Part shown: positions 20,485 to 48,492 of the stretch, one piece after another
Layout of the letters: each line of letters starts with the position of its first letter
Numbering within the stretch: position 1 is the first letter of the stretch
IMG/VR virus record: IMGVR_UViG_3300010316_000005
Coordinates: 62,001-126,000 of that record
Strand: one strand, 5' to 3'
DNA: 64,000 nucleotides
Source of the DNA: a virus
Position numbers and translations under genes: made by a program
The notes under the pieces: generated by a model
The model's input: only the letters and a program-made list of their open reading frames with translations
Told to the model about the DNA's origin: nothing
Databases searched by the model: none

Positions 20485-20970
20485 CTGTCACTTATAATTA
20501 AAAAAATTGGTGAGGTTGATTTAGACTTATTAAAGTCAGAACTTTCAGTATTATTAGAAAGCACTGACTCTAGTCCTCAACAAACTAGTTTTCAAGGATT
20601 TGCCGAAGGCGACTTTAACGGCGCAAATGGAAAAACAACAGAGCTTGCTGGCAGCGAGACTGACTGTACAGCAATACTATTTCCAGACAGCTATGATTAT
20701 TTGTATTCATTAATAGATGAATACAAAATGTATCGTACTAGATTAATGCTATTGCCAGATAAAAGAAACTATAGCTGGCATTTAGATTACTCTGCCAGAC
20801 TACATATTCCCCTTATCACTAACGAAAGTTGTTTCTTCATTATAGAAGAACAGAAGTATTATCTGCCCGCAGACGGAAGTGTGTATTGGGTAGATACTAC
20901 TAAGTGGCATACGTTTGTTAATGCTAATAGAAATGAATTTATGCGTTCTCACATTGTAGGATGTATATAA
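20485..20970 (+). CDS. 2OG-Fe(II) oxygenase-like protein (Asp/Asn hydroxylase type), likely CTG start
   Basis: This 161-codon frame has no ATG until 20701, but homology to the next gene begins upstream. The N-terminus here (LIIKKIGEVDLDLL) aligns with MWPIKRIGEIDLDRL of the neighbour. An AAAGGA box (20470-20475) stands 9 nt before a CTG at 20485, the best start. The double-stranded beta-helix shows HxD in WHLDYSARLHIPLIT, then IEEQKYYLPADGSVYWVDTTKWHTF with the second His, then RSHIVG with the likely 2OG-binding Arg. The family usually hydroxylates Asp/Asn/Pro in proteins or small molecules. It directly follows the fibre gene and overlaps its paralogue by 1 nt. Confidence 0.7.
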   Translation: MSLIIKKIGEVDLDLLKSELSVLLESTDSSPQQTSFQGFAEGDFNGANGKTTELAGSETDCTAILFPDSYDYLYSLIDEYKMYRTRLMLLPDKRNYSWHLDYSARLHIPLITNESCFFIIEEQKYYLPADGSVYWVDTTKWHTFVNANRNEFMRSHIVGCI

Positions 20971-21476
20971 TGTGGCCAATAAAAAGAATAGGCGAAATTG
21001 ATTTAGATCGATTAATGGACGAGATCGGTCATATTGAAAAGCCTAAAGAAGGACCTAGACAATACCCCTTTCAAAAAAAGGAAGGCATAGAAGCAGAAGC
21101 TGCCAAAGGCACAAACTTTGTACTAAGAACAGACGAGTTTGATTTTAACACCCTAATACATCCAAAATTTAAATACATAAATTCAATTATCAACAAGTAC
21201 GATATGTTCAGAACTCGTAAAATGTGGATGCACGAAAAGTTCGTGTATGCGTGGCACGTTGATAATAGTCCAAGAATCCATATACCGTTATACACTAACG
21301 AGAATTGTATGTGGATTATTGAAGAGTGTGTTTATAGAATCCCAGCAGATGGCGGAGTATATCTTGTAGATACTACTGTGCCTCATACGTTTTTAAATGC
21401 TAACGCTGATCCGTTTTTGAGAACTCACATAGTAGGAGCAACTACTATACCGATATCACAGGATCGTTCTTCATAG
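20970..21476 (+). CDS. 2OG-Fe(II) oxygenase-like protein, paralogue of preceding
   Basis: A 168-residue protein, start at ATG 20970 in a TAATG overlap (an ATG at 20961 also exists). It has the same fold and motifs as its neighbour: WHVDNSPRIHIPLYT (HxD), then IEECVYRIPADGGVYLVDTTVPHTF (distal His), and FLRTHIVG with the Arg. Both are likely Fe/2OG enzymes. Tandem duplication is apparent at the protein level (many identical positions from the GE-x-DLD start to the R-[ST]-HIVG end). The 3' end overlaps the convergent 21445 gene by 32 nt. Confidence 0.8.
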   Translation: MWPIKRIGEIDLDRLMDEIGHIEKPKEGPRQYPFQKKEGIEAEAAKGTNFVLRTDEFDFNTLIHPKFKYINSIINKYDMFRTRKMWMHEKFVYAWHVDNSPRIHIPLYTNENCMWIIEECVYRIPADGGVYLVDTTVPHTFLNANADPFLRTHIVGATTIPISQDRSS

Positions 21477-21897
21477 GATCACCGACTGTCATTCCGGGCC
21501 TTCGGTGATCGTTTCTGACTACTTGTAATATCACATTGCTCGATAAAATGTATTCAAATAGCTCTGCTTTTTCTTGTTCAGATAATGTTTGTTCTTTGCG
21601 CGTGTATGGTTTGTCAAAGTTGCTTAAAAAATACGTTTCGTCTACTTTAGAATCAAATTCTTGTCGTGCTGCTTTTGAATCCCATATTTGATATAGCGTA
21701 AATTTGTTGCCGTCGATTACTTTAGCACGGATAATAAGTTTGCCGGTGTCTCTTGCGTGTCTGTACGCAGTACCGTAATTTTTCCAAAAGTTTTCGTCGG
21801 GCAATAAGCTTTGAAACCTTTTAGATTTGTTTGTTAAATAATCCTGGAAGAAATCGCCGTGTTCAGTTTCAAACGTCGTTAGCCAATATTCTTTCAT
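21445..21897 (-). CDS. Unknown protein at the end of the oxygenase operon
   Basis: The 150-residue protein overlaps the radical SAM gene at 21869 by 29 nt. Trp/Phe-rich N-terminus (MKEYWLTTFETEHGDFFQDYL), then a central AKVIDGNKFTLYQIWDSKAARQEFDSKVD and a C-terminal helical part. The strand-turn-helix TLYQIWDSKAARQEF is reminiscent of a ferredoxin-like (dimeric alpha/beta barrel) element. No family assigned. It is the last gene of the minus-strand chain. Confidence 0.6.
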   Translation of the reverse strand: MKEYWLTTFETEHGDFFQDYLTNKSKRFQSLLPDENFWKNYGTAYRHARDTGKLIIRAKVIDGNKFTLYQIWDSKAARQEFDSKVDETYFLSNFDKPYTRKEQTLSEQEKAELFEYILSSNVILQVVRNDHRRPGMTVGDPMKNDPVISV

Positions 21898-23233
21898 TTT
21901 CTTTTTCCAATTTACGGAGTATGAGCGTCTCTTGCTGTGCTATACGCTTATCTCCTTTTAACCCGATTTCTTGCGACAGTTCAGTAACTTGCTTCCAACG
22001 TTCGTACCGCTTTGCGTATGTTAGTTCTCCGTCTTTTGTCCAACTGCGCCATAATTGAACATCTCCATGCCAACGTTCTTTATCTTCGTATATTTCTGTG
22101 TCGGGCATTAGCATCGCTATATTAGTACGAACCTCAACATAATTTTTGTAAGGCTCAGACTTACGCAACAGCTCTAGTGTATCTTCAAAGTCTTCTTCTG
22201 TTTCTGTAGGATATCCTACAATAAGCAAATACAACATATCGATCTTGCGCTTTCCTAATGCTTCGATGCTAGTATACATATCAGTGTTATTAAACTTTTT
22301 CTTCATATGCCAGCGGACGTTTTCACTGCCACTTTCAATTCCAATCCACAAGCCTTTACAACCGCTTGCTGCTACGTTATCCCAATCTTCATCAGTCATT
22401 CCGCTACGGAAAATAAACTGGCCTCTCCATTCAATTGGCAGATTTGCCTTAGCAAGTGCTTTACAGAATACCCTAAACTCTTTCATTGACCCGTTAACTA
22501 AGCTATCACTGAAGTGAAATTTGTTAACTCCGTAGGTGTGATACTGGTGTATCATTTCGTTAGCAACATCAGTGCCTGGCCTAAATTTGTACTTCTTCCA
22601 ATTAGCGTGTACGTCACAGAACGTACACTGTCTTACACAGCCTCTTGACCCTGTAACAATAAGCGTAGGTTTGCTGTATAAGCTAAAGTCAATGTCGCTA
22701 TAATCAGGTATTGGCATATTTGATAAATCATCCATTTGAGGGAATCGATGTGGCTCGCCTCGTATCAGCGCAGGTAATGATCTATCTCCTTCTCCAGATA
22801 GTGCGTGGTCTGCTAATCCATCATTAATCATTTGTTGACCAAAGTTTATTTGGAGTACCTTCAAGTCACTATGATTATTAGTAAGTCCTGACCCGCCTAA
22901 TACAATTTTAGCGTCTGACATTTCTCGAATGACACTAAGAAACAACTTAGTAAATATTTGACTGTTGAGCGTAAACACACTACATCCGATCCATTCATAA
23001 TCAACTAACTGCTTACAGTATTCTTTGATAAACTCACCGTATGCCGGAAGATAGTTGTCTCCCGTTTCGCACCATGCCACTGCGTCATCGCCAAACTCTG
23101 TAAGAAATGCATGATTTAAATCATAGCAAGTACTATCAATACCTTCACGATTTAGTACTCCTTTTAGGAATACAATGCTAGGGGCAGGATGCCAATAGTT
23201 TTGACTCGGCATTGAAAGTAATGCTATACTCAT
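21869..23233 (-). CDS. B12-binding-type radical SAM enzyme
   Basis: A protein of 454 residues when started at ATG 23233, which overlaps the previous stop by ATGA; an upstream in-frame start at 23269 is less likely. The N-terminal ~150 residues form a cobalamin-binding-like Rossmann part (IALLSMPSQNYWHPAPSIVFLKG; AKIVLGGSGLTNN). A radical SAM core has CVRQCTFC (C199, C203, C206), and WIGIESGSENV is the SAM-binding strand typical of this class. Such enzymes methylate unactivated carbons or perform rearrangements. The usual histidine of the B12 motif (DxHxxG) is not obvious, so cobalamin binding is uncertain. Substrate unknown. Confidence 0.82.
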   Translation of the reverse strand: MSIALLSMPSQNYWHPAPSIVFLKGVLNREGIDSTCYDLNHAFLTEFGDDAVAWCETGDNYLPAYGEFIKEYCKQLVDYEWIGCSVFTLNSQIFTKLFLSVIREMSDAKIVLGGSGLTNNHSDLKVLQINFGQQMINDGLADHALSGEGDRSLPALIRGEPHRFPQMDDLSNMPIPDYSDIDFSLYSKPTLIVTGSRGCVRQCTFCDVHANWKKYKFRPGTDVANEMIHQYHTYGVNKFHFSDSLVNGSMKEFRVFCKALAKANLPIEWRGQFIFRSGMTDEDWDNVAASGCKGLWIGIESGSENVRWHMKKKFNNTDMYTSIEALGKRKIDMLYLLIVGYPTETEEDFEDTLELLRKSEPYKNYVEVRTNIAMLMPDTEIYEDKERWHGDVQLWRSWTKDGELTYAKRYERWKQVTELSQEIGLKGDKRIAQQETLILRKLEKENERILANDV

Positions 23234-24018
23234 ATTGTCTGCCAAGGTTGCAACAAAGTTTTTCTCCACAATAGTCGTTCTCTGGAATCTTTAATTGTGC
23301 CGCGATAATGTAAGTTAACCCAGTTATCTAGTATTAGCAAATCACCGTTGTTCCAGTTATGCCGATGTAAGTATTTATACGTCATCATAGAGTTAAACCA
23401 ACTAGAAATTTCATCGTCTAATACCAAATCTCTGTTAGGCTTTTGTATTGCCATAGTAAAACTAAATCTAGGAGCAGGTACACCTTCGTCTGGCGCTAGA
23501 CCAAACACCTTGCTATCTACTCTCATTGCGCCCCAATAAAAGCTTTCTTTTCCTGTTATAGGATGTGTTTTAATAAAACTGCTCCAGAATGGTTGACATC
23601 CGTTCTTATAATCTTGTGTTAGAACTTGCAAGCTACGCAAGTACTCTTTAGTATCGTCGGGCTGATCTTCAAACCATTTTGTTATATTAAGAAAGTATAT
23701 CTCACCATCATTAGGATCTGGTATATCTACTGCGTAGAAAGCTCTTAACGGAAATCTGTATTTTTCGTGCCACGGGTTATCGGCGTGCCAGGGTATACTC
23801 ATACTGCCAAATCTTGTCTTGCTAGACCAGTCGACTACTTGGTCTTCGTTTAAAGTTTCGGTGTGAATCTTGTGAATTTCAGCCGACCAAGGTGTTGTTA
23901 CACTAGAGCAGAATTCAAAAAACTCTTGCTTGGTTAGATTAACGTTAGCCTGGTGCCAGAACCCTTTTTCGCGGGCAATATCAACTATTTCTTGTGGTGT
24001 ATTTAAAATATGGGTCAA
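23230..24018 (-). CDS. TauD/TfdA-type 2OG-Fe(II) dioxygenase
   Basis: Encodes a 262-residue TauD-family enzyme. The facial-triad pair is visible in SIPWHADNPWHEKYRF (HxD around residue 99), with the distal His in WVNLHYRGTIKDSRERLLWRKT near the C-terminus, and the Arg that binds 2OG's carboxylate following. ATGA-coupled to the radical SAM enzyme downstream; its start overlaps the upstream gene by 38 nt. The reaction is probably hydroxylation or desaturation of a small molecule or side chain. Substrate unknown. Confidence 0.82.
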   Translation of the reverse strand: MTHILNTPQEIVDIAREKGFWHQANVNLTKQEFFEFCSSVTTPWSAEIHKIHTETLNEDQVVDWSSKTRFGSMSIPWHADNPWHEKYRFPLRAFYAVDIPDPNDGEIYFLNITKWFEDQPDDTKEYLRSLQVLTQDYKNGCQPFWSSFIKTHPITGKESFYWGAMRVDSKVFGLAPDEGVPAPRFSFTMAIQKPNRDLVLDDEISSWFNSMMTYKYLHRHNWNNGDLLILDNWVNLHYRGTIKDSRERLLWRKTLLQPWQTI

Positions 24019-24655
24019 CCCATTCCTCCTCGATCCAGTCTGGCCTGCTTACTTTCATTTCGAATAAACTTTCTTCGATTAATTTTTTATATGCGTTAGT
24101 ATCTTCGCCATGCCACGGGGCTCCTACGCATAGTGTAATCTTTTCTTCTTTGCCGGGATCTAAGCTATGTGGATGACTGCCATCTAATACATAGCTGTTA
24201 TACAAACTAGGCACATATACCTTTTTACCGTTGCGGTCTAGGAAGTACAGCTTGTCTATTTCTCCTGCTAGCGCAATCCTAAATTTGTGCTGTCTAGTGC
24301 CTACTTCGTTAGCGTTAGTATCAAGATGCGTGTTCAGCCCATGACCAGCTTGTGTGCGCAGTACATTAAGTCTCCCGGCTGGCATCATCCAGCTGAATAT
24401 CTTCTCTTCAAATATCTTTATGCTGTTAGTTAGGTACGGCTCGGCATCAGTGTACTTAAATTTACCCGAGGTAGTATCACCTGTTTCTTCGCGTTGCCCT
24501 CTAACGCCGCCACCGTTATAGATAGGCAATATTCGGCAACCTCTGAAACTGTTGTCTTGGTAAAGTTCAAAAGGGACAGATAATACTTCATTTAATATAG
24601 TATCTTTATCTTGCTGAGTTAGACCTATATCAATTGCGCAAAATGTAAAGTCCAT
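23981..24655 (-). CDS. Asp/Asn hydroxylase-type 2OG oxygenase
   Basis: A 224-residue protein of the double-stranded beta-helix type. GHGLNTHLDTNAN carries HxD near residue 117, RQHKFRIALAG a central strand, and DGSHPHSLDPGKEEKITLCVGAPW the distal His with a basic residue for 2OG. The N-terminal part (SVPFELYQDNSFRGCRILPIYNGGGVRG) resembles other phage Asp-hydroxylase-like proteins. It begins right next to the stop of the upstream gene. Confidence 0.78.
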   Translation of the reverse strand: MDFTFCAIDIGLTQQDKDTILNEVLSVPFELYQDNSFRGCRILPIYNGGGVRGQREETGDTTSGKFKYTDAEPYLTNSIKIFEEKIFSWMMPAGRLNVLRTQAGHGLNTHLDTNANEVGTRQHKFRIALAGEIDKLYFLDRNGKKVYVPSLYNSYVLDGSHPHSLDPGKEEKITLCVGAPWHGEDTNAYKKLIEESLFEMKVSRPDWIEEEWVDPYFKYTTRNS

Positions 24656-25288
24656 CTACCATTTCCTTTCAACTGATTCCCACGGAACTGGGTCATCAAA
24701 TAGCTGAAATCTATTTCCGCTCTGATAAGTTTCTACTAATTTATGCCAAGGAACAACTGTCATATGTGTTTTTAGTATAAGTCTCTCTGTGGGCTCATCA
24801 TTAAAAACAGCATGTGGTCTGTTTACATTCAAGAAACAAGGATTGATGTATTCGTGTCTTGTAATTTCTGTTTTGTTATCTTGGAATAGTGCTATTTCAG
24901 TTTTTCCCTTTAAAGGAATGTTAAACGCCGATAGAGCAAGCAAGTTGTAGTTTACGTGTGGCATAAAGTATCCACCCGGTGGTTGACCTAAAAATGTAAA
25001 TTTGATAACATGTTTTATTTGTTCCCAATTAATATAAACATCACTTTTTTCGGCAATGTTTTTTACTCTAGCATATACTTCACGCCAAAGATTCATATTA
25101 CAATCGTAACATAAATGGTGTACTATTTGATCGTCTTGATCTCTTTTTAGAACATCGTGAGAATTATCAAATTTAGATCGTACCTTTGTTTCGTAAAATT
25201 CTAACAGTTCAGCTTTATCTGCTTCAAAACCATTATATCCCTGTGTTTCAGCAAAACGATCTTCAAATCTATAACGTAATTGCTTCAT
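24656..25288 (-). CDS. 2OG oxygenase-like protein with HxN in place of HxD
   Basis: A 210-residue protein of the same fold family. The metal motif stands as FMPHVNYNLLALSAFNIPLKG (H-V-N, about residues 110-130) and RPHAVFNDEPTERLILKTHM has the distal His and a later Arg. The usual aspartate is replaced by asparagine. Asp/Asn hydroxylases such as AspH work without the carboxylate ligand, so it may still be active, or do other chemistry. Neighbouring genes directly abut on both sides. Confidence 0.7.
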   Translation of the reverse strand: MKQLRYRFEDRFAETQGYNGFEADKAELLEFYETKVRSKFDNSHDVLKRDQDDQIVHHLCYDCNMNLWREVYARVKNIAEKSDVYINWEQIKHVIKFTFLGQPPGGYFMPHVNYNLLALSAFNIPLKGKTEIALFQDNKTEITRHEYINPCFLNVNRPHAVFNDEPTERLILKTHMTVVPWHKLVETYQSGNRFQLFDDPVPWESVERKW

Positions 25289-26134
25289 TTAAAATATCCT
25301 TCTATAATCAAAAGAAAGTCTGTATAACAACCTGTCTCCTTCGACGGCATTGCGCTTATGAATACTATGAAACTGATCCATGAATACAAAGTCACCAGTT
25401 TGCCAATCGTTGTGATGATATATATATTTTTCCTGAAATACGTGTTTCATCAAATAGTCACGCAACCAAGTTTCATCTAATAATACTCCATCTCGCCTTG
25501 ACATTTGCTGGATGTAATGAAAAACAAAATACAAGCCTCTTTCCTTAGTCCAAGGATGCGTATACACCAACGGCTTTGTTACGCCGTCTACAAAAGCAGG
25601 ATGCTGTTCGAAAATTTGCAGTTCTCTGTCATCTTCATCTAAATCATAGAAGGATCCGTTTTTGAACTTAAACAAGCACTCAACTTGATCTACTATCTCC
25701 TTTATATCAGTAGGAAGATCAGTGTATGCGCGGCGAGTATCACAGAAGCTAGTTATGCTGCCTGTACCCGGCTTTACACAATACAGTGCTACACAGGCTT
25801 CTTTGCCACTAGGGCGACCGTTTCCGTTAGAGTGCCAGTCTAACTCTTTGTCAGCAAACAATCCTGTCTTTTCACCATCCTTGCGCTCATTGGTTACCCT
25901 AAACAATCCGGGATATTCCGGATGCATAAAGAATTGATCCGGCTTCATACAATGCCCAATAGCTTCGCAAACTTCTAGCACTTTGCTTTCATGAAGCTTC
26001 TGGTTACGTACTAATATTACATTATCAACTGGAATATGTCTACCAAATTCTTGTAGTTCATCTGTTGACATTGCATTAAAATCAACATCGTATTCTACGC
26101 CAACGCCTGGCAAATCTCTAACTTTTTTCATCAT
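25289..26134 (-). CDS. TauD/TfdA-type 2OG oxygenase with HxN
   Basis: A 281-residue TauD-type protein. The first metal motif, expected as WHxD, reads LDWHSNGNGRPSGKE (residues ~98-112; H-S-N), and the distal His lies in FMDQFHSIHKRNAVEGDRLLYRLSFDYRR with the 2OG-binding Arg. Residues 1-40 follow the usual TauD start (ILVRNQKLHESKVLEVCEAIG). It is possible that the alignment is off by one and another Asp serves as ligand. Full length for the family. ATGA overlap with upstream gene. Confidence 0.75.
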   Translation of the reverse strand: MMKKVRDLPGVGVEYDVDFNAMSTDELQEFGRHIPVDNVILVRNQKLHESKVLEVCEAIGHCMKPDQFFMHPEYPGLFRVTNERKDGEKTGLFADKELDWHSNGNGRPSGKEACVALYCVKPGTGSITSFCDTRRAYTDLPTDIKEIVDQVECLFKFKNGSFYDLDEDDRELQIFEQHPAFVDGVTKPLVYTHPWTKERGLYFVFHYIQQMSRRDGVLLDETWLRDYLMKHVFQEKYIYHHNDWQTGDFVFMDQFHSIHKRNAVEGDRLLYRLSFDYRRIF

Positions 26135-26793
26135 AGCTTAATCTGATCCTGTAAATCTGTTCTTAAATTGTCAAAGTGAAATCCAAGTATAGCAACGCGG
26201 CGGATTGCTTTGTCGTCGTTAACTACTGTATGATTCCAGCCCGTATTAACAAACCAAAGTTCTTTTGGTTTCATTTTAAACTCGTGTACACCTTCTTTAT
26301 CTCTAAAAAGAAAGGTACTGTTATTTTCATTTAAGCAAATTTGTGCTCTGCATATAACACTAGTGTCAGCGTCGATGTGCCAGTTAAGTTTATGATCTGG
26401 TTGCATTTCACTTAGTCTAAATCTGTACACATCGCTAAAGAAGCTTTTCATTTCTTCTTGTACTATTTCGGAGTTTGCTGCCCACTTTGAATACAAATAC
26501 TCATCCATATTATTTTGATTTATCGCAGGGTTAGTTTGCATAATTACTTGTCTATACGATTGACCTACGTTAAATACCTTTTCGTAATCGCAGCCTCGAC
26601 TGATAGCGTAATCGTCGCCACCTATATCGCTTTGTTGATTGTTATCTAAAAACTTGTTTAGGTAATCAAACACTTCGTCTGACACTTCTCCGAGCTTAGA
26701 AAAGACCTGTAGCTTGTTGCGCCTCGGGCCAGTGCCTCCGACTCTTGTTCTTTTTGTTTGCTCTACTAAACATACTTTGTCTTCATTACTCAT
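26131..26793 (-). CDS. Asp/Asn hydroxylase-type 2OG oxygenase
   Basis: This 220-residue protein starts at ATG 26793 (ATGA overlap with upstream stop; an in-frame ATG at 26805 overlaps by more). LNWHIDADTSVICRAQICLN holds an intact HxD, followed by FLFRDKEGVHEFKMKPKELWFVNTGWNHTVVNDDKAIRRVAILGFHF with the distal His and an Arg-Arg pair. It closely follows the Asp/Asn beta-hydroxylase pattern. The N-terminus is basic (KRTRVGGTGPRRNK). Confidence 0.8.
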   Translation of the reverse strand: MSNEDKVCLVEQTKRTRVGGTGPRRNKLQVFSKLGEVSDEVFDYLNKFLDNNQQSDIGGDDYAISRGCDYEKVFNVGQSYRQVIMQTNPAINQNNMDEYLYSKWAANSEIVQEEMKSFFSDVYRFRLSEMQPDHKLNWHIDADTSVICRAQICLNENNSTFLFRDKEGVHEFKMKPKELWFVNTGWNHTVVNDDKAIRRVAILGFHFDNLRTDLQDQIKL

Positions 26794-27341
26794 AATTTCT
26801 TCCAATCGCTTATGGGCATACTGTTTAACTCTAATTCTTTACCATTGTAGATTACATTCTGCCAGCAATTTTTATCCCCAGGGGTCGCGCAAGTCTGTAT
26901 CATTTCTGGATGAAGAATCCATTCGCCTTCTAATTTTTGTGCATATCTTGCTAACGAATTGCGTCTCTTTAAGTCTTGCATAGATATAAAAACTGTCTTG
27001 TACTGTTGTATATATTCTAACTGTCGTGGCAGAATATACAAACTTGGACTGAACCTTTTGTCGTGTGCCGGTAACGTAAATCTTCTATAGTCGGGATATA
27101 TGTAAGTTCGCGTTAGCAGTCTATAACAACCTTCGTAAAATTCCTGTATAGTAGCAAACGCTGCTAATTTATCGTTGTCAAGTAAAAAGAACCATTCAGC
27201 AAACTTTGTATTGTAGCACTTTTCTAAATGCGCAAACCAATCACTGTTTCGTGCATCGCCCGCGTGCTGCGCGGCATCGAGCAACTTTAATTCATTTAAA
27301 AAACGTTCCTCACCAAATTCTGATAGCGTGACTACTTTCAT
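26790..27341 (-). CDS. Acyltransferase-like protein (GNAT type, tentative)
   Basis: The protein has 183 residues. The central EWFFLLDNDKLAAFATIQEFYEGCYRLLTRTYIYPDYRRF (about residues 49-88) has the strand-strand-loop look of a GNAT fold (beta2-beta4 with a YPDYRR motif in place of the acetyl-CoA R/Q-x-x-G/A loop). The C-terminus is less regular. Tentative; it could also be an unrelated protein. ATGA-coupled on both sides. Confidence 0.5.
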   Translation of the reverse strand: MKVVTLSEFGEERFLNELKLLDAAQHAGDARNSDWFAHLEKCYNTKFAEWFFLLDNDKLAAFATIQEFYEGCYRLLTRTYIYPDYRRFTLPAHDKRFSPSLYILPRQLEYIQQYKTVFISMQDLKRRNSLARYAQKLEGEWILHPEMIQTCATPGDKNCWQNVIYNGKELELNSMPISDWKKL

Positions 27342-28051
27342 TGCTTGATTATTCCTATAAACCTAGCAGTAGGATCAAACTCGTACCACTTGCGTCCAAT
27401 GCGATAATCGCCGCCTCTATCGTGGTGATTAGCGTGCCAACCTTCTCCGGCGGTTAACATATTAGCAACCCAAGAATTGCTAGGCTTGCCATTTTTATGC
27501 CCAAGAACATTTAACAAGCTGTATCCGTGAAACGCAAACACAACAGGAACAGCGTACCCGAATATCAAAAGCAATGGATTAATCGCAGCAAGAATTAGAA
27601 TGATTGCAATATTCAGCTTAAAGTAATGCTGATAGAACCAACGAAGTAATTTGTCTCTTAATAAGCTCTTTATAAATTTACGTTCTATGTGGGCAGTATA
27701 TCCCCAAGTGTTAAAATAGACTGTTAACAGTCCTTTTATAGCAAACGAGTGAGGGTCTTTATCAGTATCGCTATATGCGTGATGCTGTAGATGGGTTCCT
27801 GCCCAGGTTAACACGGGGCCAGCGCCGCTGAACATTCCTAGAATGTTAACAACGTAGGGATACCATCTTCCTGTTTTAAAACTTCTATGACTATAGTATC
27901 TGTGATAGCCGCCGCTTATTGATACAATGGCAATTACATACCACCATAACAGAGCAGCAATAAACATCCACCATTCTCCGTACATAAAAGCAGGGATCAA
28001 CATTAGATGACAAAATATGTGATTTAGCAGTAGTTTAGAGGTATTGTTCAT
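27338..28051 (-). CDS. Fatty acid desaturase (acyl-CoA/lipid delta-9 type)
   Basis: A 237-residue membrane-bound di-iron desaturase. All three His boxes are present: HRYYSH (50-55), HLQHH (87-91) and HANHH (206-210), with four hydrophobic segments (10-30, 31-50, 66-83, 147-180). The spacing matches stearoyl-CoA desaturase-like proteins, which insert a cis double bond in an acyl chain. It would act in the host membrane and may adjust host lipid or an acyl chain on a phage-made product. Overlaps the SDR gene by 17 nt. Confidence 0.92.
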   Translation of the reverse strand: MNNTSKLLLNHIFCHLMLIPAFMYGEWWMFIAALLWWYVIAIVSISGGYHRYYSHRSFKTGRWYPYVVNILGMFSGAGPVLTWAGTHLQHHAYSDTDKDPHSFAIKGLLTVYFNTWGYTAHIERKFIKSLLRDKLLRWFYQHYFKLNIAIILILAAINPLLLIFGYAVPVVFAFHGYSLLNVLGHKNGKPSNSWVANMLTAGEGWHANHHDRGGDYRIGRKWYEFDPTARFIGIIKQ

Positions 28052-31741: not shown

Positions 31742-31877
31742 CTTTTATCTGCTCTATGTCAATTCTTTGAGGAGTACAGTGATGGCAAGAGTAACTCAAT
31801 CCTGTATCAAGTCTGAGATTAGTACGATACCATTTTGCCAAGCAAAAAGATGGGCTTACGTGATTTAGTTTCTTCAT
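31734..31877 (-). CDS. 47-residue mini-protein resembling a radical SAM N-terminal motif
   Basis: A short ATG frame that starts by ATGA overlap with the methyltransferase-like gene and ends overlapping the start of the SPASM gene. It reads HVSPSFCLAKWYRTNLRLDTG, then SYSCHHCTP. It matches the N-terminal region of the radical SAM protein at 42446 (HISPSMCLAKF, then VHSCHHPVP). The double coupling argues it is a real gene, giving an iron-sulfur-cluster ligand or substrate-recognition module as a separate chain. Confidence 0.7.
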   Translation of the reverse strand: MKKLNHVSPSFCLAKWYRTNLRLDTGLSYSCHHCTPQRIDIEQIKDD

Positions 31878-37468: not shown

Positions 37469-37477
37469 AATAAATAT
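37469..37477 (+). promoter_or_regulatory. T4-type late promoter for the DegT-amidinotransferase operon
   Basis: AATAAATAT, 21 nt before the start at 37499. Confidence 0.55.
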
Positions 37478-40134: not shown

Positions 40135-41240
40135 TATTTCCAAATTTAGAAATTATAGATAAAGACGATGCCGTTTACTTTCATAACGATGGAGATGAGG
40201 GAGTTCGGCGTTATTTTTATATACGTAATATCTATCAGCCAGACGAAACTACTGCGTATCTTTTTCTTTCTCAAGAATTTACAAATATTACTAACGCATC
40301 AAACTATATTATCAAAAAGGGCTACACTAAGCTGTTTATCTTTATTGACGATATATTTAGAGATCACTTGATGTTCACCAACGCGCAAGCCGAAATTAAA
40401 GCAGTTAAGGAAATCTTAGAAAAAACTAATATCAAAGACTACCGGATATTCCATTGCGAAATGTTAAATAAAGGCAATTACGAAAATCCATTTGACGTCG
40501 ACATTGAATATTACGACATGTTCCTTACGCACTGGATCAAAAAAAATCCTTACGATCACGAACTAAATATTAACTTCGAAAACAAGATTAGCTTTTACAA
40601 TAATAGAGATGACTATCATCGGCAGTATATGGCAGCAATGCTAATCAACAACAATGACATCGATCTCACATTGAATCAAAAACATCGTTACACATATATA
40701 GCCAACCAATCCAAATTTCCTATCAATCAATTTAGTAAAGGTTTCCAGCGTAGATTAAAGTCAAACTTAATACAGCTGGATAAAGTACATCGCAACTATG
40801 TCGACGGCAATAATTCTGAACTTAAGATGATAGACAACTACAAAGAACAACACGACGACAAAGTTGTTCGTTGGATAGAAAATAGCTTTGTTAATCTCGT
40901 AGGCGAAACAACCTATTATCTTCCCTATCCATATATCAGTGAAAAGTCACTAAAGCCCATGCTCGCACATCGTCCATTTATTATGCTTGGGCCACATAAG
41001 AGTTTAGAAGTATTACGCGAGCTAGGATTCAAAACGTTTGATAAGTGGGTTGACGAGGACTACGACAAGGAGCCGGATCCCCATAAGCGACTTGAAATGG
41101 TTTACAAACTTACACAGGATGTACTACGCAAGGACCCCGACGAGTTAAAAGAAATGTTGCTCGCTATGGGAGGGGTACTGCGGCATAATAAAAAAGTCGT
41201 AGACAGATTACCGCACGATATTTGGGAAAGCCTTTTGTAG
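40131..41240 (+). CDS. Putative glycosyltransferase (exostosin-like C-terminal motif)
   Basis: The 369-residue protein is ATGA-coupled. The C-terminal third has YISEKSLKPMLAHRPFIMLG, PHKSLEVLRELGFKTFDKW and DEDYDKEPDPHKRLEMVYKL. This matches a motif of phage and bacterial GT-like proteins (SEK-x-x-KP ... [PF]-[IV]-G ... L-x-x-LG[FY]-x-[TS]), resembling exostosin-family glycosyltransferases. The same motif occurs in the protein at 41208. The N-terminal part is divergent. Confidence 0.6.
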   Translation: MIFPNLEIIDKDDAVYFHNDGDEGVRRYFYIRNIYQPDETTAYLFLSQEFTNITNASNYIIKKGYTKLFIFIDDIFRDHLMFTNAQAEIKAVKEILEKTNIKDYRIFHCEMLNKGNYENPFDVDIEYYDMFLTHWIKKNPYDHELNINFENKISFYNNRDDYHRQYMAAMLINNNDIDLTLNQKHRYTYIANQSKFPINQFSKGFQRRLKSNLIQLDKVHRNYVDGNNSELKMIDNYKEQHDDKVVRWIENSFVNLVGETTYYLPYPYISEKSLKPMLAHRPFIMLGPHKSLEVLRELGFKTFDKWVDEDYDKEPDPHKRLEMVYKLTQDVLRKDPDELKEMLLAMGGVLRHNKKVVDRLPHDIWESLL

Positions 41241-42449
41241 ATCTGGCATTAAGTTAGGATGCTCTTTAGCACTCTTACTTAGAGTAAAATAATTGTGTAT
41301 AAAGATTGGTAGCATATCTTTCATTATTTGATGCATCTCTTCTTTGTCTTTCTTAATAAACTTTTTTACAGACTTTAACGCAGCATACAATCTGTCTTGA
41401 TCATTTTCTATTGCGTCATACGACTCGTCTATAAATTCACCGCAGGTCTGATACCCTAATTCTTGTAAACGCGTTAAGCTATGTGCTTCGCCAAACAGCA
41501 CAAACGGCTGCAAGAACACAAACGGCTTAATAATCTTTTCACTAAAGAAAATTCGCCCTTCTTCGTTTTGGTGAAAGGTTTCGCTTACGATGTGAAGGTA
41601 ACTATCTAAATACTTTTCAACATTGTCGTCACTTGTTGGATTTTCAGTAGCAAGATTTACATCATATTCCCGAGGAATTGTATGTAAAAGGTTCTTAAAT
41701 TTTTCCACTACCTTCGGATAAAATAAGTTTAAATTGTATAAAGAACCCTGTAGCGCATCACCTTCAAAGTAATTATCACTAAAATCGCCATTTCCCATAG
41801 TAAGAATACCATCGTCTCTATATTTGTACATTTCAGCATATATAGCCATCCTGTGCTCATGCGGACGACGTTGTAAGCATAAAAATTTATGCGGGAGTAG
41901 TTTGTCATTATGAATTCGTTCAACACATTCTCTGAATAGATGCGGCGCTGAACCTTCGTGGTGAATAATAATGTTTTCCCATTCATTGTAGTACACGTTA
42001 GGAATACCGTTAATGTACGGCTCTGTATTTCCAGAAATAAATACAACATGACTTAATTTCAAATTATGAGGGACTATTATCTTTTTCATTAAAAAATGTT
42101 CGAATTGTTTCCAGCCGTGACCTTCGTAAATATTAATAAGTAGCAGCTTGGCTCTATTATTTCTAAGATCTGTTTTTACTTTAGATGGAATTTTTATATA
42201 CACTGAATCATTCATAAAATAGTCAGCTGGACCCGATGCCGCGACGTGTACATAAATTGGATAATAGTAATATCCTTTGTATGTTGAATTTACTCGTTTC
42301 ATTGTATCTTTTAATGGCCACGGGATGAACGACTCTGCGTCATCATCATCATATGCAATGTGATGACAATAGTCTAAATCCCAGCCATTGAACTTCTTAA
42401 TATTTTTTGTATTTGTATCAAGGTAATCGAAGTACATTGGTATTGTCAT
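41208..42449 (-). CDS. Putative glycosyltransferase (exostosin-like C-terminal motif)
   Basis: A 413-residue relative of the protein at 40131. Its C-terminal part reads FFSEKIIKPFVFLQPFVLFG, EAHSLTRLQELGYQTCGEF and DESYDAIENDQDRLYAALKS. The N-terminal half has LLINIYEGHGWKQFEHFL and NVYYNEWENIIIHHEGSAPHLF, and HKFLCLQRRPHEHRMAIYAEMY in the middle, likely the sugar-nucleotide side. Overlaps its convergent relative by 33 nt. Likely a GT for a surface glycan. Confidence 0.62.
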   Translation of the reverse strand: MTIPMYFDYLDTNTKNIKKFNGWDLDYCHHIAYDDDDAESFIPWPLKDTMKRVNSTYKGYYYYPIYVHVAASGPADYFMNDSVYIKIPSKVKTDLRNNRAKLLLINIYEGHGWKQFEHFLMKKIIVPHNLKLSHVVFISGNTEPYINGIPNVYYNEWENIIIHHEGSAPHLFRECVERIHNDKLLPHKFLCLQRRPHEHRMAIYAEMYKYRDDGILTMGNGDFSDNYFEGDALQGSLYNLNLFYPKVVEKFKNLLHTIPREYDVNLATENPTSDDNVEKYLDSYLHIVSETFHQNEEGRIFFSEKIIKPFVFLQPFVLFGEAHSLTRLQELGYQTCGEFIDESYDAIENDQDRLYAALKSVKKFIKKDKEEMHQIMKDMLPIFIHNYFTLSKSAKEHPNLMPDLQKAFPNIVR

Positions 42450-43894
42450 TGTATGTTCCTTTTCTGCTGGGCGCAGACATTATAAAAATCAGCCATCTCC
42501 GGAAATGTTTCCAGAAAGTTTACGTTTCGTCTTTTGTCAAGTGCGTTAACAAAATCATAAAATTTAGCTCTCATTTTATTTATTTCAAGGACCGACTCTT
42601 CGGTGTACTTAAAGTTAACTCGATTCATTAAAATTCTTTCAAGCTTCTTAACTTCATATGGTTCAAACTTCCAGCCACAGTTATCATCATTGACATTAGC
42701 TTCCATAAACTCTAAACATTCTTTAATGTATGCTAGCAAGCCGTCGTCGCAATACTGTGCATCTAATAACTGAGGATGGCGTACATACGGAATATCTATT
42801 CCTATTCTCGACCGGCGCGTATTATGTTTGTTTTTAAGTTTAAGTACATGTTCTAGAACTTGCTTAAAGCTAGTAATTGCAAATAAGTTGTACGCAGCCA
42901 TTACTGTTACTCTAACAGACGTTTCGTCAAGTAACTGATTTATGCGTTTAAGAACATTGTCAAATTCAATTCCTGTCCTTGCGTACTCTGCCCGAGATCC
43001 CCAGCTTTCGAAGCTAGTAAAAATAGTAATCTTTTTGAAGTTTACGTCTTTTTCTAATATCTTAATTTTTTCTAGAAAATTATCCCATATCTGGTCCGGC
43101 ACAGAAAGATTAGTATTAATGCTAATTTCTAATTTATCAGACGGATGTACTACAACATAGTCAAGGCTGCGCAATGTGTTTTTATTTAACAATGGCTCGC
43201 CTCCTGTTATCCTAAAATGTCGTAACTTAGGATATATTTCCGGAAACCATTCCCAAAATGCATCAATATAAGGATTGTGTTCCCTGTTAGGAATGACTAA
43301 ATTGTCAAGATCCTGCCATCCTTGCACCCATTGATCTTCTGTATCCTTGCCATCAGTTACTTTAATTGGTCCGTGCTGCTTGAGTTCTTCTGCCCACTTT
43401 GAACTAAATTCAGGACCACAGTACGCACACTTCATATTACACGTATTACCGAAGCTTACTTCTAAATAAGTAGGCTTGAATATGTCGTCACCTTTAGATT
43501 TAGCAATGTTATCGTATTCTAATATTGCCCAGTCTTCGGTGCTCTTTAAATGACGATCACTTAAATTTTTGTTGTCCTCAATTCTCCAACAATAGTCACA
43601 CTCACCAGGACGCTTTCCGTTAAGCATTTCAGTTCTAGCAGCTTTTAATATTGTAGTATTAAAAAGTGCTGCTGGATTTTCTTTAAGTTCGTCGAGTGGT
43701 ATTTTATGTGGTACGGGATGATGACAACTATGCACCTGACCGGTACCTAAGTGCATAGTTACCTGAGTGAACTTTGCTAAACACATACTTGGACTAATAT
43801 GCGCCAACGCTTCTGTTACTTTATTAAGATTGTAATTGCTTTGATTAACTCTTCCGTGCTCGTCAAAGTCTATATTTAAGTCGTCAAGGTTCAT
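42446..43894 (-). CDS. Radical SAM/twitch-type enzyme with N-terminal CHHP motif
   Basis: A 482-residue protein. The N-terminal region has HISPSMCLAKFTQVTMHLG, then GQVHSCHHPVP (about residues 32-62) and ECDYCWRIE (98-106), probably ligands for an auxiliary cluster. The radical SAM core has CNMKCAYC (C152, C156, C159) and RITGGEPLLNKNT (GGEP near 224-236). The C-terminal region is helical. The family is common in T4-like marine phages; substrate unknown. ATGA overlaps link it to the GT genes either side. Confidence 0.87.
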   Translation of the reverse strand: MNLDDLNIDFDEHGRVNQSNYNLNKVTEALAHISPSMCLAKFTQVTMHLGTGQVHSCHHPVPHKIPLDELKENPAALFNTTILKAARTEMLNGKRPGECDYCWRIEDNKNLSDRHLKSTEDWAILEYDNIAKSKGDDIFKPTYLEVSFGNTCNMKCAYCGPEFSSKWAEELKQHGPIKVTDGKDTEDQWVQGWQDLDNLVIPNREHNPYIDAFWEWFPEIYPKLRHFRITGGEPLLNKNTLRSLDYVVVHPSDKLEISINTNLSVPDQIWDNFLEKIKILEKDVNFKKITIFTSFESWGSRAEYARTGIEFDNVLKRINQLLDETSVRVTVMAAYNLFAITSFKQVLEHVLKLKNKHNTRRSRIGIDIPYVRHPQLLDAQYCDDGLLAYIKECLEFMEANVNDDNCGWKFEPYEVKKLERILMNRVNFKYTEESVLEINKMRAKFYDFVNALDKRRNVNFLETFPEMADFYNVCAQQKRNIQ

Positions 43895-44829
43895 TATTTT
43901 TCAATCTCAATTAATCTATTAGATATTCTTTCAGGGTTTTTATAAACTTCTTTGAAAAACTTACTTTGCTGAACGTCAAACGGATTTTCAGCAATTGGCA
44001 GGTCTAATTCCTTAATAAGCTTCTTGCCTAAATCGGCAGTTTCGTCAAGGACCTCGTGGGCGCTATCAAATAGTGTCGACACTTCTGTTTCCCAGTAAGC
44101 GTTGAGCCATTTAAAGTCTCGTACATTTACATAATCCCAATCTGTACACATTGTTTTATACAGTCCTTCGCGGGCTCCAAATATCGCATACATACCGTTC
44201 TCTACATCAGCACCTGCCATAGTCCAAATATACAACCTATGCATATTCTTCCAGTGATTTTTAAGCAGTTGCTCTTTAGAAGTAGGACGAACTCCTTGAT
44301 CTAGACACATTTTTACACCTTCTCTAAATCCTGCTCTCCAAGCCTGTTGTGGAGAAGCATTATTGTGTATAGTGCTAAAGTTGCCTTCCATTTGAATATA
44401 TCGCACGTCCCAGCAGAATTCTACTTGCGCTGCTTTATTTCTTGGATCTGCTGCTTCGTGAGTTTTCATCGTTAATACGTGATTTTTAGGCCAACATTTT
44501 AAGCCGCCGTTGCCATACACTAATCCGTTAATTTGATTAACTGCGGCCCAACTAATAACACAGTTTTCTAGATCTTCATTTTGACTAAAATCTATTTCTT
44601 GTTCAAGGAATTTTCCATCAACAATGTTGTCGCCGTCAACTGTAATAAATCTATCAGTTTCACTTAGTCTTGCGCAAGCTTTGTGAGCAGCGTCGCTTCC
44701 TTCTACTCCGTGAACTCGTTTAGCCCAAGGAACTTTCTGGCACAAGTCGGCATAATTCTTCTCTGCGTTAGGTTCGTCGTATGACAAGTATATAATGTCA
44801 TAGTCTAGTACTCGAAATTTTTTGGTCAT
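43894..44829 (-). CDS. Glycosyltransferase-like protein, paralogue of 32775
   Basis: The protein has 311 residues. DIIYLSYDEPNAEKNYADLCQ (about residues 12-32), ITVDGDNIVDGKFL (DxD), and VNQINGLVYGNGGLKCWPKNHVL are shared with the protein at 32775. The C-terminal part (ANGMYAIFGAREGLY-like) is similar too. Proposed as a nucleotide-sugar transferase on DxD plus context. TAATG overlap with the radical SAM gene. Confidence 0.68.
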   Translation of the reverse strand: MTKKFRVLDYDIIYLSYDEPNAEKNYADLCQKVPWAKRVHGVEGSDAAHKACARLSETDRFITVDGDNIVDGKFLEQEIDFSQNEDLENCVISWAAVNQINGLVYGNGGLKCWPKNHVLTMKTHEAADPRNKAAQVEFCWDVRYIQMEGNFSTIHNNASPQQAWRAGFREGVKMCLDQGVRPTSKEQLLKNHWKNMHRLYIWTMAGADVENGMYAIFGAREGLYKTMCTDWDYVNVRDFKWLNAYWETEVSTLFDSAHEVLDETADLGKKLIKELDLPIAENPFDVQQSKFFKEVYKNPERISNRLIEIEK

Positions 44830-45449
44830 AGTTTAACCTCGTGTTTATAATTATCAAAATATTTGTTAGTGTAGATGCTCACTTCTAGATGATTAGATTC
44901 CCATTCGTTTTCGTAAGGAAATTCGATAACATTTTTATAAATTAGTTCTAATACTGCAACTTCAAACCTTCTAATAAGTACGTTTGGATCGTTTTTCTTA
45001 GTTATAGTAAAAGTTAGTTGCTTATGCTGATTGTATCCAGTTTTTTCAAGGAGCGACTGTATCTTCTTGTTTAATGAAACAGCCCATACTTTGTCCTGAA
45101 CGCGCTGTACTATTTTTAATTCGTAATCAGAAGTTTTGGAAACTTTTATCTCAAACAATCTATCATTGATTGACAGATTGTTGACGTTGTTATCTTTTTC
45201 AACTACTGCAAAATCCTTCATTGACGGAATATATGACACTACATAATCTTCCAGCCGTTTATAGCCGTGTAGTACCGGCAAGACGTCTTGCCGAGGCGAT
45301 AGTACCAATTCACTATTTGCTAACTCCGGCACAAGCTTATTAGCAATTCGAATAATTGCGCCTGTTTCTTTAGTATAGTACACAAAAACTTTGCCGCCAG
45401 TTTCAACTTGTTTTGCAATAGTATTAATTAAATCGTTAAGATCCGACAT
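44826..45449 (-). CDS. Unknown protein in the glycan operon
   Basis: It encodes 207 residues. An N-terminal helix (DLNDLINTIAKQVETGGKVFVYYTKETGAIIRIANK) leads into a mostly beta region with regularly spaced charged strands (DYELKIVQRVQDKVWAVSLNKK; QLTFTITKKNDPNVLIRRFEV). The protein at 47122 has a similar strand/turn start (CQFLVSKDLITFVGYLV). It may serve as an adaptor or structural factor; no family recognised. ATGA overlap downstream. Confidence 0.6.
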   Translation of the reverse strand: MSDLNDLINTIAKQVETGGKVFVYYTKETGAIIRIANKLVPELANSELVLSPRQDVLPVLHGYKRLEDYVVSYIPSMKDFAVVEKDNNVNNLSINDRLFEIKVSKTSDYELKIVQRVQDKVWAVSLNKKIQSLLEKTGYNQHKQLTFTITKKNDPNVLIRRFEVAVLELIYKNVIEFPYENEWESNHLEVSIYTNKYFDNYKHEVKL

Positions 45450-46281
45450 TTAGTTCTCCCCTATATAGATCTTCTAACTTTTCAGTTAAAAAATCTTCTT
45501 CTGTATAGTGAAAGATTCCTTGCTGTAAATAGTTGCCAATCTTAATTTCAATGTTTTCGTTGATGTACAGCGCAGCTGAGTCAATCCAAGATGTATTAGA
45601 TGTTTGCCAATTTTGTATCTTCGATTTCATATGTGTAAATGTTACAAAATCCATTGACCCATTTGTAATCTCATGAGAAACATCTAAGATTTTAGCAACT
45701 AACGCAGCATTTACATCTACGCTGTTGCGAGACGGTGTTTCATTAGGAAGATATAGCTGGTAAAAATTCTGCCAGTTGTTGTTAACTACCTCGAGCCATG
45801 TGTAGAATTCGTGAGCTTTGTCGCACTTCTTAAAATAATGCATTCCTGAATATAGATTTGGAAGATTGTTGGCTACAAATGTCTTTCTATAAAAGTCCGA
45901 TGTAACTTTTTCGCCGCGATATGTATATACATCCGAAGCAAAAAACAATTCATAGTTTGACATAATATCAAATATGTGACTAATATCGCTTAGTATTAAC
46001 ATGTCGGCATCTAGAACCATAGTTTCATCATACGGAGTGGCATGATATATTTTCCAACGATTCTCGATCTTCCATAATGCATCTTCTGCGTCATCTTGAA
46101 AGGGGATTAAAATTATCTTATCAAAAAATTCCTGGTATTCTTTAGGAACTCTGTCATTAGTAATGATGCTAATTTTTTCTGTTGGATTCGTTTTACGTAA
46201 ACTCATTGCTAATACGCACGCCTGGCGAACGTAATCAGAGCCAATTGTGTTTTGCGCTAGTACAACTATACCTCTACTCAT
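45436..46281 (-). CDS. GT-A (GT8-like) glycosyltransferase
   Basis: A 281-residue protein: GIVVLAQNTIGSDYVRQACVLAMSL (residues 4-28) is the GT8-like start, and ISIITNDRVPKEY follows. YDETMVLDADMLILSDI has the DxD metal site (about residues 90-96), and the NLYSGMHYFKKCDKAHEFY region is the acceptor-side helix. ATGA-coupled to the next GT gene. Donor unknown. Confidence 0.8.
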   Translation of the reverse strand: MSRGIVVLAQNTIGSDYVRQACVLAMSLRKTNPTEKISIITNDRVPKEYQEFFDKIILIPFQDDAEDALWKIENRWKIYHATPYDETMVLDADMLILSDISHIFDIMSNYELFFASDVYTYRGEKVTSDFYRKTFVANNLPNLYSGMHYFKKCDKAHEFYTWLEVVNNNWQNFYQLYLPNETPSRNSVDVNAALVAKILDVSHEITNGSMDFVTFTHMKSKIQNWQTSNTSWIDSAALYINENIEIKIGNYLQQGIFHYTEEDFLTEKLEDLYRGELNVGS

Positions 46282-47135
46282 TTTGCTTGCTCCTGATCGA
46301 TAATTCTTCCTAAGCTAAACTTATTCATTACATGAAGGTCAACGCCTTGCGTAGTTATTGCAGTATATTGACCAAGATAATTCTCTTTTTCGACTAGAAT
46401 TGTCAATGTATCATCGTTAAGTTCTTCTAGTACATCTCGGTCAAGAGTATAATGATGACGACCTGGAAGAGGCTGGACAATGTCGCCTTTACTAAAACCA
46501 TTAATTATATGAATTGCAATACTAAAGGCGTAGTCGTTTCTAAACAAAGGATTATTGATTTGATAAACATCCCTGTAATGATCCCACTGTTGCTCAATGA
46601 AGCAAATTAGATTAAAAAATATTTCAGTAAGTAAGGTCTTTCTAAAGAACACAACAGTTGCCCACCAAAAATCAATGCCCTGGTCACTAGTTCTTGTAAA
46701 TTCAAATTTGTCTCTAAATTCTGCTAGATCTTGCGATTTATCAAATGCCATTATATCACTGACACTACCAAAACAGTTCTTAAGAATATCACTGCAAATA
46801 ATGTAGTCCGTGTCCATTAATAATGTTTCTTTATAAGGGGACAATTGATATGCTGAAGCGCGGTCACTGTTCTTAAATGGCAGTTGTCTTTTAGACATTG
46901 TGCCGTCAAAGTAATTACGAATGTTTGTTGCACTGGCTGTATAGTCAACTGCAATAATTTTATCAAATAGATCAGGGCCTGCTTCAGTTAATAAATAATC
47001 GTGCGAGTCTGTTATTACTGATACAGGCACATCTAAATATTGCTTAATACGTTTAGCAGAAAAGATAGCTTGTTTTACATAGTCAACTGTTCCGTTATTT
47101 TTTGCTATTAGCAGTGCGCCTTTACTTTCTGTCAT
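46278..47135 (-). CDS. GT-A (GT8-like) glycosyltransferase
   Basis: A 285-residue relative of the protein at 45436. It opens with GALLIAKNNGTVDYVKQAIFSAKRI, then VSVITDSHDYLL; the DxD is in KETLLMDTDYIICSDI (residues ~104-112). WWATVVFFRKTLLTEIFFN matches the SGMHYFKK region of the paralogue. Probably adds a sugar in the same pathway. Confidence 0.78.
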   Translation of the reverse strand: MTESKGALLIAKNNGTVDYVKQAIFSAKRIKQYLDVPVSVITDSHDYLLTEAGPDLFDKIIAVDYTASATNIRNYFDGTMSKRQLPFKNSDRASAYQLSPYKETLLMDTDYIICSDILKNCFGSVSDIMAFDKSQDLAEFRDKFEFTRTSDQGIDFWWATVVFFRKTLLTEIFFNLICFIEQQWDHYRDVYQINNPLFRNDYAFSIAIHIINGFSKGDIVQPLPGRHHYTLDRDVLEELNDDTLTILVEKENYLGQYTAITTQGVDLHVMNKFSLGRIIDQEQAK

Positions 47136-47481
47136 GATCGATTAACGCTTCTACAGTTCTCTTGCTTTTTATTTCGGTAAATTTATTATAGTAGTCGTTT
47201 GATGCTGAGAAATAAACGTCGAGAATATCGTCATAAAATTTACTCAAGTCCTCGATTTTAATCGGAGTGCTATTGTCGTCTAATAGTACAACATCTTGAT
47301 CTGTTCCGTGGTCTACTAAGTAGCCAACAAATGTAATCAAATCTTTAGATACTAAAAACTGACATCCGCCGTGATAAAATAATAGGTCTTCAAAATACTT
47401 TTCTTTAATCATTCTTTTTTGGTTATTAAGTGTAACCATATAGTTAGAAATGTCTAACGCTTGCTTTAATCTTTCATCCAT
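47122..47481 (-). CDS. Unknown small protein, first gene of the glycan operon
   Basis: The 119-residue protein is helical at the start (MDERLKQALDISNYMVTLNNQKRMIKEKYFEDLLF), then a short strand part (CQFLVSKDLITFVGYLVDHG), an acidic turn and a final helix. A 14-nt overlap with the GT gene downstream. The sigma70 promoter at 47503 is 21 nt upstream. Confidence 0.6.
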   Translation of the reverse strand: MDERLKQALDISNYMVTLNNQKRMIKEKYFEDLLFYHGGCQFLVSKDLITFVGYLVDHGTDQDVVLLDDNSTPIKIEDLSKFYDDILDVYFSASNDYYNKFTEIKSKRTVEALIDHDRK

Positions 47482-48491: not shown

Positions 48492-48492
48492 C

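Follow-up and report, generated by a model that had tools for sequence, protein, structure and literature searches.

A fixed slot beside the fibre genes of a T4-superfamily phage holds a glycosyltransferase core and exchangeable enzyme cassettes

In the 64,000-nucleotide stretch analysed here (the window; positions 62,001 to 126,000 of IMG/VR record IMGVR_UViG_3300010316_000005, our G000:C1:62001-126000), a marine T4-superfamily phage represented by a 175,736-base contig carries an island of about 29 enzyme-like open reading frames (ORFs) at window positions 20485-47481. Sequence comparison indicates that this island is a fixed slot between a fibre module and an RNaseH-side module, filled by a glycosyltransferase (GT) core (u471-GT8b-GT8a-GTd) and exchangeable cassettes. 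The core comprises the following features.

47503..47531 (minus): sigma-70-type promoter of the core operon, TTGACT-17-TATAAT, by consensus match
47122..47481 (minus): u471, unknown, first gene of the core operon, conserved in relatives
46278..47135 (minus): GT8b, glycogenin-like GT8 by PDB profile
45436..46281 (minus): GT8a, glycogenin-like GT8 by PDB profile
44826..45449 (minus): u448, unknown core protein, conserved in relatives
43894..44829 (minus): GTd, GT-A-type glycosyltransferase of the conserved core, by AlphaFold (pLDDT 87) and Foldseek

The comparison set comprised about 200 viral contigs. In scans of viral contigs anchored on UDP-glucose dehydrogenase (UGDH) and on GTd, relatives were encoded in at least 592 stretches; mapping covered the best 80 of each scan. 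Among 77 loci with GTd and 5 kb of upstream sequence, GT8a was present in all 77, GT8b in 76, u471 in 75 and a fibre gene in 72. The gene order is not due to chance because it recurs in scores of contigs; these contigs are related, and the linkage of the core among them is conserved synteny, not a set of independent events. The gene-order comparison called for by the original prediction thus found the genes linked in relatives, not scattered.

The contents of the slot vary among relatives while its flanks stay. In three related contigs (L179, L186 and L188) the distance from u471 to the RNaseH-side genes is 5.3 kb and includes four GTs, compared with about 28 kb in the window. Across 1,747 distinct island proteins, about 22% match the radical SAM families of the window and 28% its GTs. 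Related contigs carry 2-22 radical SAM domains each, and all four of this phage's lie inside the island. Other islands add a tryptophan halogenase, a carbamoyltransferase, a full DegT, an epimerase, a hexapeptide transferase, an AMP-ligase and a nitroreductase; the halogenase at 12028-13539 of L131, within a related island, scores 261 bits by Pfam. Cassettes also decay and are lost, as judged from a radical SAM remnant between SAM3 and MT. The original prediction had read the island as one 27-kb pathway for a single molecule. This did not survive the comparison, which separates at least four cassettes and finds the left third travelling alone in other phage backgrounds. Its remark that the island holds far more chemistry than a normal phage tail region was borne out by an intact and much larger set of sugar and peptide enzymes at the fibre genes.

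As dS was saturated for many genes, the proportions of nonsynonymous (pN) and synonymous (pS) differences were used in place of dN/dS. Against the closest relative (L109), genes of module 3 and of the core gave pN of 0.08-0.27 and pS of 0.67-0.85, and the fibres gave pS of 0.64-0.76. Most genes are therefore not broken; by pN versus pS, those that could be tested are under purifying selection. Most GTd matches in 'bacterial' metagenome-assembled genomes (MAGs) are phage contigs with the same fibre-GT core. Nine contigs from 'bacterial' or 'archaeal' MAGs carry this core (L092-L095, L097, L098, L103, L104 and L106) and are probable phage contamination. Three Bdellovibrionota MAG contigs (L099, L101 and L102), which carry GTd, MT and radical SAM genes, look chromosomal.

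The core and the fibre genes differ in promoter class. ATAAATA, the T4 late-type motif, is the most enriched 7-mer upstream of this genome's genes (13-fold) and precedes many structural genes; in relatives it is found at the fibre-module gene fib3 (48 of 58) and at a baseplate-side gene (15 of 15). Sigma-70 sites with at least 11 of 12 matches precede 16 of the genome's 197 genes and none in shuffles, several of them before DNA-metabolism genes (RNaseH/exonuclease, SbcD-like). Upstream of u471, a near-consensus sigma-70 promoter at this threshold was present in 54 of 79 relatives compared with 0.3% in shuffles, mostly about 50 nt upstream in the listed cases. Sigma-70-type promoters drive early expression in T4 and its relatives. 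Given the sigma-70 promoter at the core and the late promoters at the fibres, the core glycan enzymes are probably made early, from host-type promoters.

We tentatively favour the view, whose chance we put slightly below even, that the island is an early serotype-like glycan decoration system with a target more likely in the host envelope than in the virion. Soluble core GTs (GT8b, GT8a, GTd and often GTa) would start and extend a glycan, and the cassettes (UGDH, N_Twi and SPASM radical SAM enzymes, the methyltransferase-like protein, and the half-size DegT/StrB1-type amidinotransferase/2-oxoglutarate (2OG) oxygenase set) would supply and decorate unusual sugars; the oxygenase/desaturase module would be separate and share the slot. 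The core enzymes, made early, would act in the cytosol as peripheral enzymes on host surface glycan or glycolipid precursors. The altered host glycan would change the receptor read by the neighbouring fibres, and the changed receptor may exclude competitors or stop progeny from re-adsorbing. By simple hydropathy, only 4 of the 1,747 island proteins have two or more predicted transmembrane segments, and two of these are desaturases. This near-absence of multi-spanning proteins suggests that the island has no genes for lipid-carrier synthesis, flipping or polymerisation and that the core works in the cytosol. In a KSB1 cluster, a GTd homologue has neighbours that resemble an O-antigen ABC transporter by sequence appearance. 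The host target is favoured by the promoter class, the serotype-like variation, this KSB1 homologue and a published proposal that comparable pelagimyophage islands change the host O-chain (PMC7029224).

Several observations weigh against a host target. The plus-strand cassette has a late-type promoter, as does UGDH in 26 of 62 relatives, and virion proteins made late could still be substrates of enzymes made early. Peptides are frequent substrates of SPASM-type radical SAM enzymes. A fibre-modification system would likewise be strictly linked to fibres, and since lipid-carrier and export genes are absent, a host target must be reachable by cytosolic enzymes. These points bear on a rival explanation that we consider unlikely, though a serious one, in which fibre or virion proteins of the phage itself are the substrates of the core GTs, and the cassettes change the glycan of the coat and so diversify antigenicity or adsorption; radical SAM and 2OG enzymes would hydroxylate or cross-link side chains that are later glycosylated. 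In nearly all relatives the core GTs immediately follow the fibre genes, which agrees with this rival, as do the solubility of the enzymes, the frequent action of radical SAM/SPASM families on peptides and a collagen-like Gly-X-Y fibre rich in Thr/Ser elsewhere in the genome. However, transcription of the core operon would start from a separate, conserved sigma-70-type promoter and not from the late promoter of the fibres, and collagen-like fibres are common in phages that lack such islands. The broader claim of the original prediction, that the phage makes or remodels a complex molecule such as a glycolipid, a fibre glycan or a peptide, accordingly stands in part: the chemistry is intact and linked, but it is not one pathway, and the promoters lean away from simple co-production with the fibres.

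Some T4-like phages use GTs and UGDH for DNA sugars, which would fit a scheme in which the island enzymes build and glycosylate a modified base of the phage DNA. We regard such hypermodification as very unlikely, as the fibre-tied hypervariability and the amount of radical SAM chemistry are atypical of it and a hydroxymethylase-type base-modifying gene was not recognised near the island. Equally remote in our judgement, or a shade more so, is a natural-product cluster in which radical SAM/SPASM enzymes and GTs mature a secreted, ribosomally synthesized and post-translationally modified peptide (RiPP). Several radical SAM families weakly match RiPP-maturase models and the best structural matches of GTd include glycocin S-glycosyltransferases; against this, membrane and export genes are nearly absent and no precursor peptide was noticed, the sole small intergenic ORF inspected being the radical SAM remnant, with no systematic scan made. 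Taken to its full extent, the host-surface reading describes a marine phage lineage with a fixed-slot early serotype-like system, in which a four-GT core and swappable radical SAM, amidino-sugar and halogenation/oxidation cassettes would rebuild the host surface glycan with aminoglycoside-like sugars and be co-inherited with the fibres. We consider this complete picture doubtful.

Between the core and the left third, the window contains the following features.

28035..28535 (minus): short SDR-like protein, weak profile match
28532..29737 (minus): SAM2, N_Twi_rSAM radical SAM enzyme (NF033640, 310 bits)
29730..30620 (minus): u297, unknown, 62-64% conserved in other islands
30620..31741 (minus): SAM3, radical SAM enzyme with SPASM, by profile
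31741..31877 (minus): remnant of the N-terminus of a SAM4-type radical SAM enzyme, 46-47 codons, between SAM3 and MT, by sequence
31874..32791 (minus): MT, methyltransferase-like, by motif only
32775..33800 (minus): GTa, GT-A-type glycosyltransferase-like by fold match, with a sigma-70-like promoter
33821..34438 (minus): IntC (45 aa) and C-terminal UGDH extein, by intein analysis
34435..35244 (minus): free-standing endonuclease between the split-intein halves (Pfam Phage_endo_I, 29.6 bits, just above cut-off)
35289..37421 (minus): N-terminal UGDH with a complete 355-aa intein, and IntN (106 aa), by profile and intein analysis
37469..37476 (plus): late-type promoter AATAAATA of the plus-strand cassette, by motif
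37499..38086 (plus): half-size DegT aminotransferase, by profile, conserved
38083..38742 (plus): SGNH/GDSL hydrolase-like, weak profile match
38720..39637 (plus): StrB1-like amidinotransferase, Asp/His/Cys aligned with StrB1 D108/H227/C332
39634..40134 (plus): OXf, 2OG oxygenase-like, by motif check
40131..41240 (plus): GTb, GT-B-type glycosyltransferase-like, by fold match
41208..42449 (minus): GTc, GT-B-type glycosyltransferase-like, by AlphaFold and Foldseek
42446..43894 (minus): SAM4, N_Twi_rSAM radical SAM enzyme (NF033640, 313 bits)

The ORFs and coordinates of the original prediction are as it described them, and its enzyme labels were checked with Pfam, NCBIfam and PDB profiles, catalytic-motif checks and two AlphaFold models. 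All four radical SAM enzymes are recognised by Pfam (30.7-61.3 bits) and carry CxxxCxxC; SAM2 and SAM4 also exceed the NCBIfam N_Twi_rSAM cut-off of 170 bits. The sugar-acid dehydrogenase is UGDH by profile, though it carries two inteins. The amidinotransferase is strongly StrB1-like (E 4e-59), scoring 203 bits to StrB1 versus 108 bits to glycine amidinotransferase, and the desaturase has both the FA_desaturase profile and the histidine boxes. About six glycosyltransferase-like proteins had been counted, and two are GT8 by profile (glycogenin match for GT8a/GT8b, E 4e-7), two have a GT-A fold and two a GT-B fold. The AlphaFold model of GTc has a pLDDT of 79. Best Foldseek matches had probabilities of 0.9-1.0 and TM-scores of 0.3-0.4, so the GT models give fold class, not function. 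Of the label aminotransferase, the DegT match and its conservation stand, but the protein is about half size (195 aa) and Pfam matches the N-part only. The remaining labels are weak: the SDR match (E 0.0065) and the SGNH match are under cut-off, GNAT is touched at E<=0.1 by 3 of 17 members of the acyltransferase-like family, and the methyltransferase label rests on a motif, with no match in Pfam or PDB. A sulfotransferase was looked for in the phage's own genome and none was found.

Two inteins interrupt UGDH. The complete one (355 aa) sits at FYN|TFISAK; the other is split, with IntN closing the long ORF, the endonuclease gene after it and IntC opening the next ORF. The junction falls exactly on the UGDH active-site Cys (GDGGG|CHPRDN), and the split intein has Cys1, a terminal His-Asn and Cys+1 (VVVHN|C). 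Both inteins are presumably removed by splicing. The joined exteins would make a protein of 409 aa that aligns along the whole of the UGDH from Synechococcus phage Bellamy, with identity at 256 of 397 aligned positions. L034 and L148 show this split layout too; the endonuclease at the corresponding position in L034 is a homologue with 46% identity. Dassa is said to have reported in 2009 fractured genes with split inteins and a free-standing endonuclease. The present locus resembles these in spreading an extein over two ORFs with IntN and IntC and an endonuclease gene between them, but the host gene here is UGDH and the junction is at the catalytic Cys. A Vsr-like endonuclease is expected of such fractured genes; the Pfam match here is Phage_endo_I, just above cut-off. 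A literature search found no paper linking a split intein to UGDH.

The left third of the island, module 1 (20485-28051), is a separate unit in scans with Tau2, DES and OXc.

20485..20970 (plus): OXa, 2OG oxygenase-like (Asp_Arg_Hydrox), probable CTG start, by motif check
20961..21476 (plus): OXb, OXa paralogue, HxD present, kept beside module 1
21445..21897 (minus): u214, unknown, last gene of module 1, orthologues at the same position
21869..23269 (minus): SAM1, B12-binding-type radical SAM enzyme, by profile and CxxxCxxC
23230..24018 (minus): Tau1, TauD-type 2OG oxygenase, by Pfam
23981..24655 (minus): OXc, 2OG oxygenase-like, HxD
24656..25288 (minus): OXd, 2OG oxygenase-like with HxN/HxA replacing HxD by alignment, a halogenase-like signature or a pseudo-enzyme
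25289..26134 (minus): Tau2, TauD-type 2OG oxygenase (Pfam, 98 bits)
26131..26805 (minus): OXe, Asp_Arg_Hydrox/proline-hydroxylase-like, by profile
26790..27341 (minus): AT, weakly GNAT-like, by family profile
27338..28051 (minus): DES, FA_desaturase family, His boxes intact

The ORF called at 20701 very probably starts at a non-standard CTG at 20485, which matches the coordinate originally predicted. Eight 2OG oxygenase-like proteins had been proposed; seven have HxD, with TauD solid for two, and the eighth (24656-25288) has HVN. The Asp_Arg_Hydrox Pfam match is above cut-off in one protein and marginal in another. In the OXd family, HxA replaces HxD in 7 of 10 members and HxN in 3 of 10, including the HVN of the window, and H159 and R169 are conserved by alignment; no PDB relative of OXd was found. 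A change of ligand from HxD to HxA type is known from Fe/2OG halogenases, and by its motif OXd is a possible Fe/2OG halogenase or a pseudo-enzyme.

The order DES-AT-OXe-Tau2-OXd-OXc-Tau1-SAM1-u214 recurs with OXb/OXa in L191-193 and with OXb in L196-198/L260-262, and the DES-AT-OXe trio occurs in other phage contigs with no recognisable GT core. From this gene order the left third is identified as an independent, mobile oxygenase/desaturase module. It is possible, though we would not expect it, that module 1 (OXa/OXb, u214, SAM1, Tau1, OXc, OXd, Tau2, OXe, AT and DES) synthesises or alters a small molecule of acyl or amino-acid origin, for example an aminolipid or a hydroxylated acyl amide, independently of the glycan; this is compatible with either target of the glycan core. 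The ten genes in the same order in the two sets of contigs, the trio lacking a GT core and a similar set adjoining the fibres in the cultured Pelagibacter phage Mosig argue for such a product. However, the assignment of AT is weak, OXe reaches proline hydroxylase only at E 0.01, and module 1 shares its slot with glycan modules in L196-198 and so may act on the same product. A more specific idea of ornithine lipid or lipid A was set aside as speculation, given that same best match of OXe and the lack of a solid match for AT.

Coarse precedents of the island are known from pelagimyophages and Campylobacter phages; its border genes, its core, its promoter class and its gene families set the present locus apart. 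The host recognition cluster (HRC) of pelagimyophages and cyanomyophages is a hypervariable fibre-side island in which GTs, mostly GT8, are numerous and UGDH and radical SAM cassettes also occur (PMC7029224). Like the HRC, the island adjoins tail fibres and carries GTs including GT8, radical SAM cassettes and ugd. Unlike the HRC, bordered by VrlC and gp14, it has at its far border an RNaseH-family exonuclease, an ATPase and an HNH protein, not gp14 (no VrlC search was made), and it has a fixed four-GT core with a separate sigma-70 promoter. By tblastn, GTd, SAM4 and GT8b had no match in 50,697 phage records, and megablast of the whole island against phage isolates gave none. The Mosig island (L267) sets oxygenase/desaturase genes beside the fibres together with MoaA-like, DegT and carbamoyltransferase genes.

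Campylobacter phages CP220 and CPt10 carry an interchangeable radical SAM/amidinotransferase module (PMC2853527). Both that module and the island place multiple radical SAM genes and an amidinotransferase in the tail region and swap them as a block (here four radical SAM genes and the amidinotransferase), but the module has far fewer GTs and a different gene set; identities to window genes are 22-29%, with 22% for the amidinotransferase. The cultured Campylobacter phage F379 (L190) has a related radical SAM/amidinotransferase/oxygenase cluster. In cultured Synechococcus phage S-SCSM2R (PQ898602, L189), a half-size DegT (39% identity), a 2OG oxygenase (31%) and an inosamine-type amidinotransferase (37%) occur with GTs, but in another context and with no GTd/GT8 core alongside. 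The catalytic alignment with StrB1 recalls the streptomycin pathway, from which the island differs in that cyclitol synthesis genes were not seen (none among the island Pfam matches) and the DegT partner is half size. In how it would work, the island resembles gtrABC seroconversion by temperate phages, where the phage alters a host glycan; it lacks a membrane flippase or membrane-bound transferase and has far more enzymes.

In surveys of viral metagenomes, genes for UGDH, radical SAM enzymes and GTs tend to be tallied as dispersed auxiliary metabolic genes. In this phage and in hundreds of marine contigs they belong to a single locus, fixed in position and exchangeable in content, that has a conserved core and a promoter class of its own. 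The function of phage sugar genes thereby becomes testable, and S-SCSM2R, Mosig and Campylobacter F379/CP220 carry related cassettes in culture. The radical SAM genes, of which one contig has as many as 22, also represent a large store of enzymes yet to be explored.

Fibre genes had been predicted on both flanks, and Pfam agrees.

19330..20463 (plus): fibre-like protein, left flank, Mtd_N domain (31 bits); late-type promoter CATAAATA, ATAAATA 39 nt upstream
47539..55461 (minus): right flank, five fibre/virion genes with late-type promoters, Collar and tail-fibre families

The fibre protein at window positions 48493-49959 (minus) has a C-terminus with a DxSxS (vWA/MIDAS-like) motif. Collagen-like repeats of the adjacent fibres were considered as a hydroxylase target and rejected, being absent from those fibres. 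A collagen-like Gly-X-Y repeat (GFTGSQG...) lies at about 175240-175736 of G000:C1 (L088), in a fibre cut by the contig end. Neighbouring genes are of T4-type replication, baseplate, major-capsid-like and SbcCD-like kinds, and the capsid protein and a baseplate-side protein are nearest to those of jumbo T4-superfamily phages of Erwinia, Salmonella, Pseudomonas and Rhizobiaceae. Several free-standing ORFs in the genome resemble GIY-YIG endonucleases by sequence appearance (G000; L082-L084, L087-L088), for example at 5356-6165, 16653-17333, 36221-36886 and 157375-157923.

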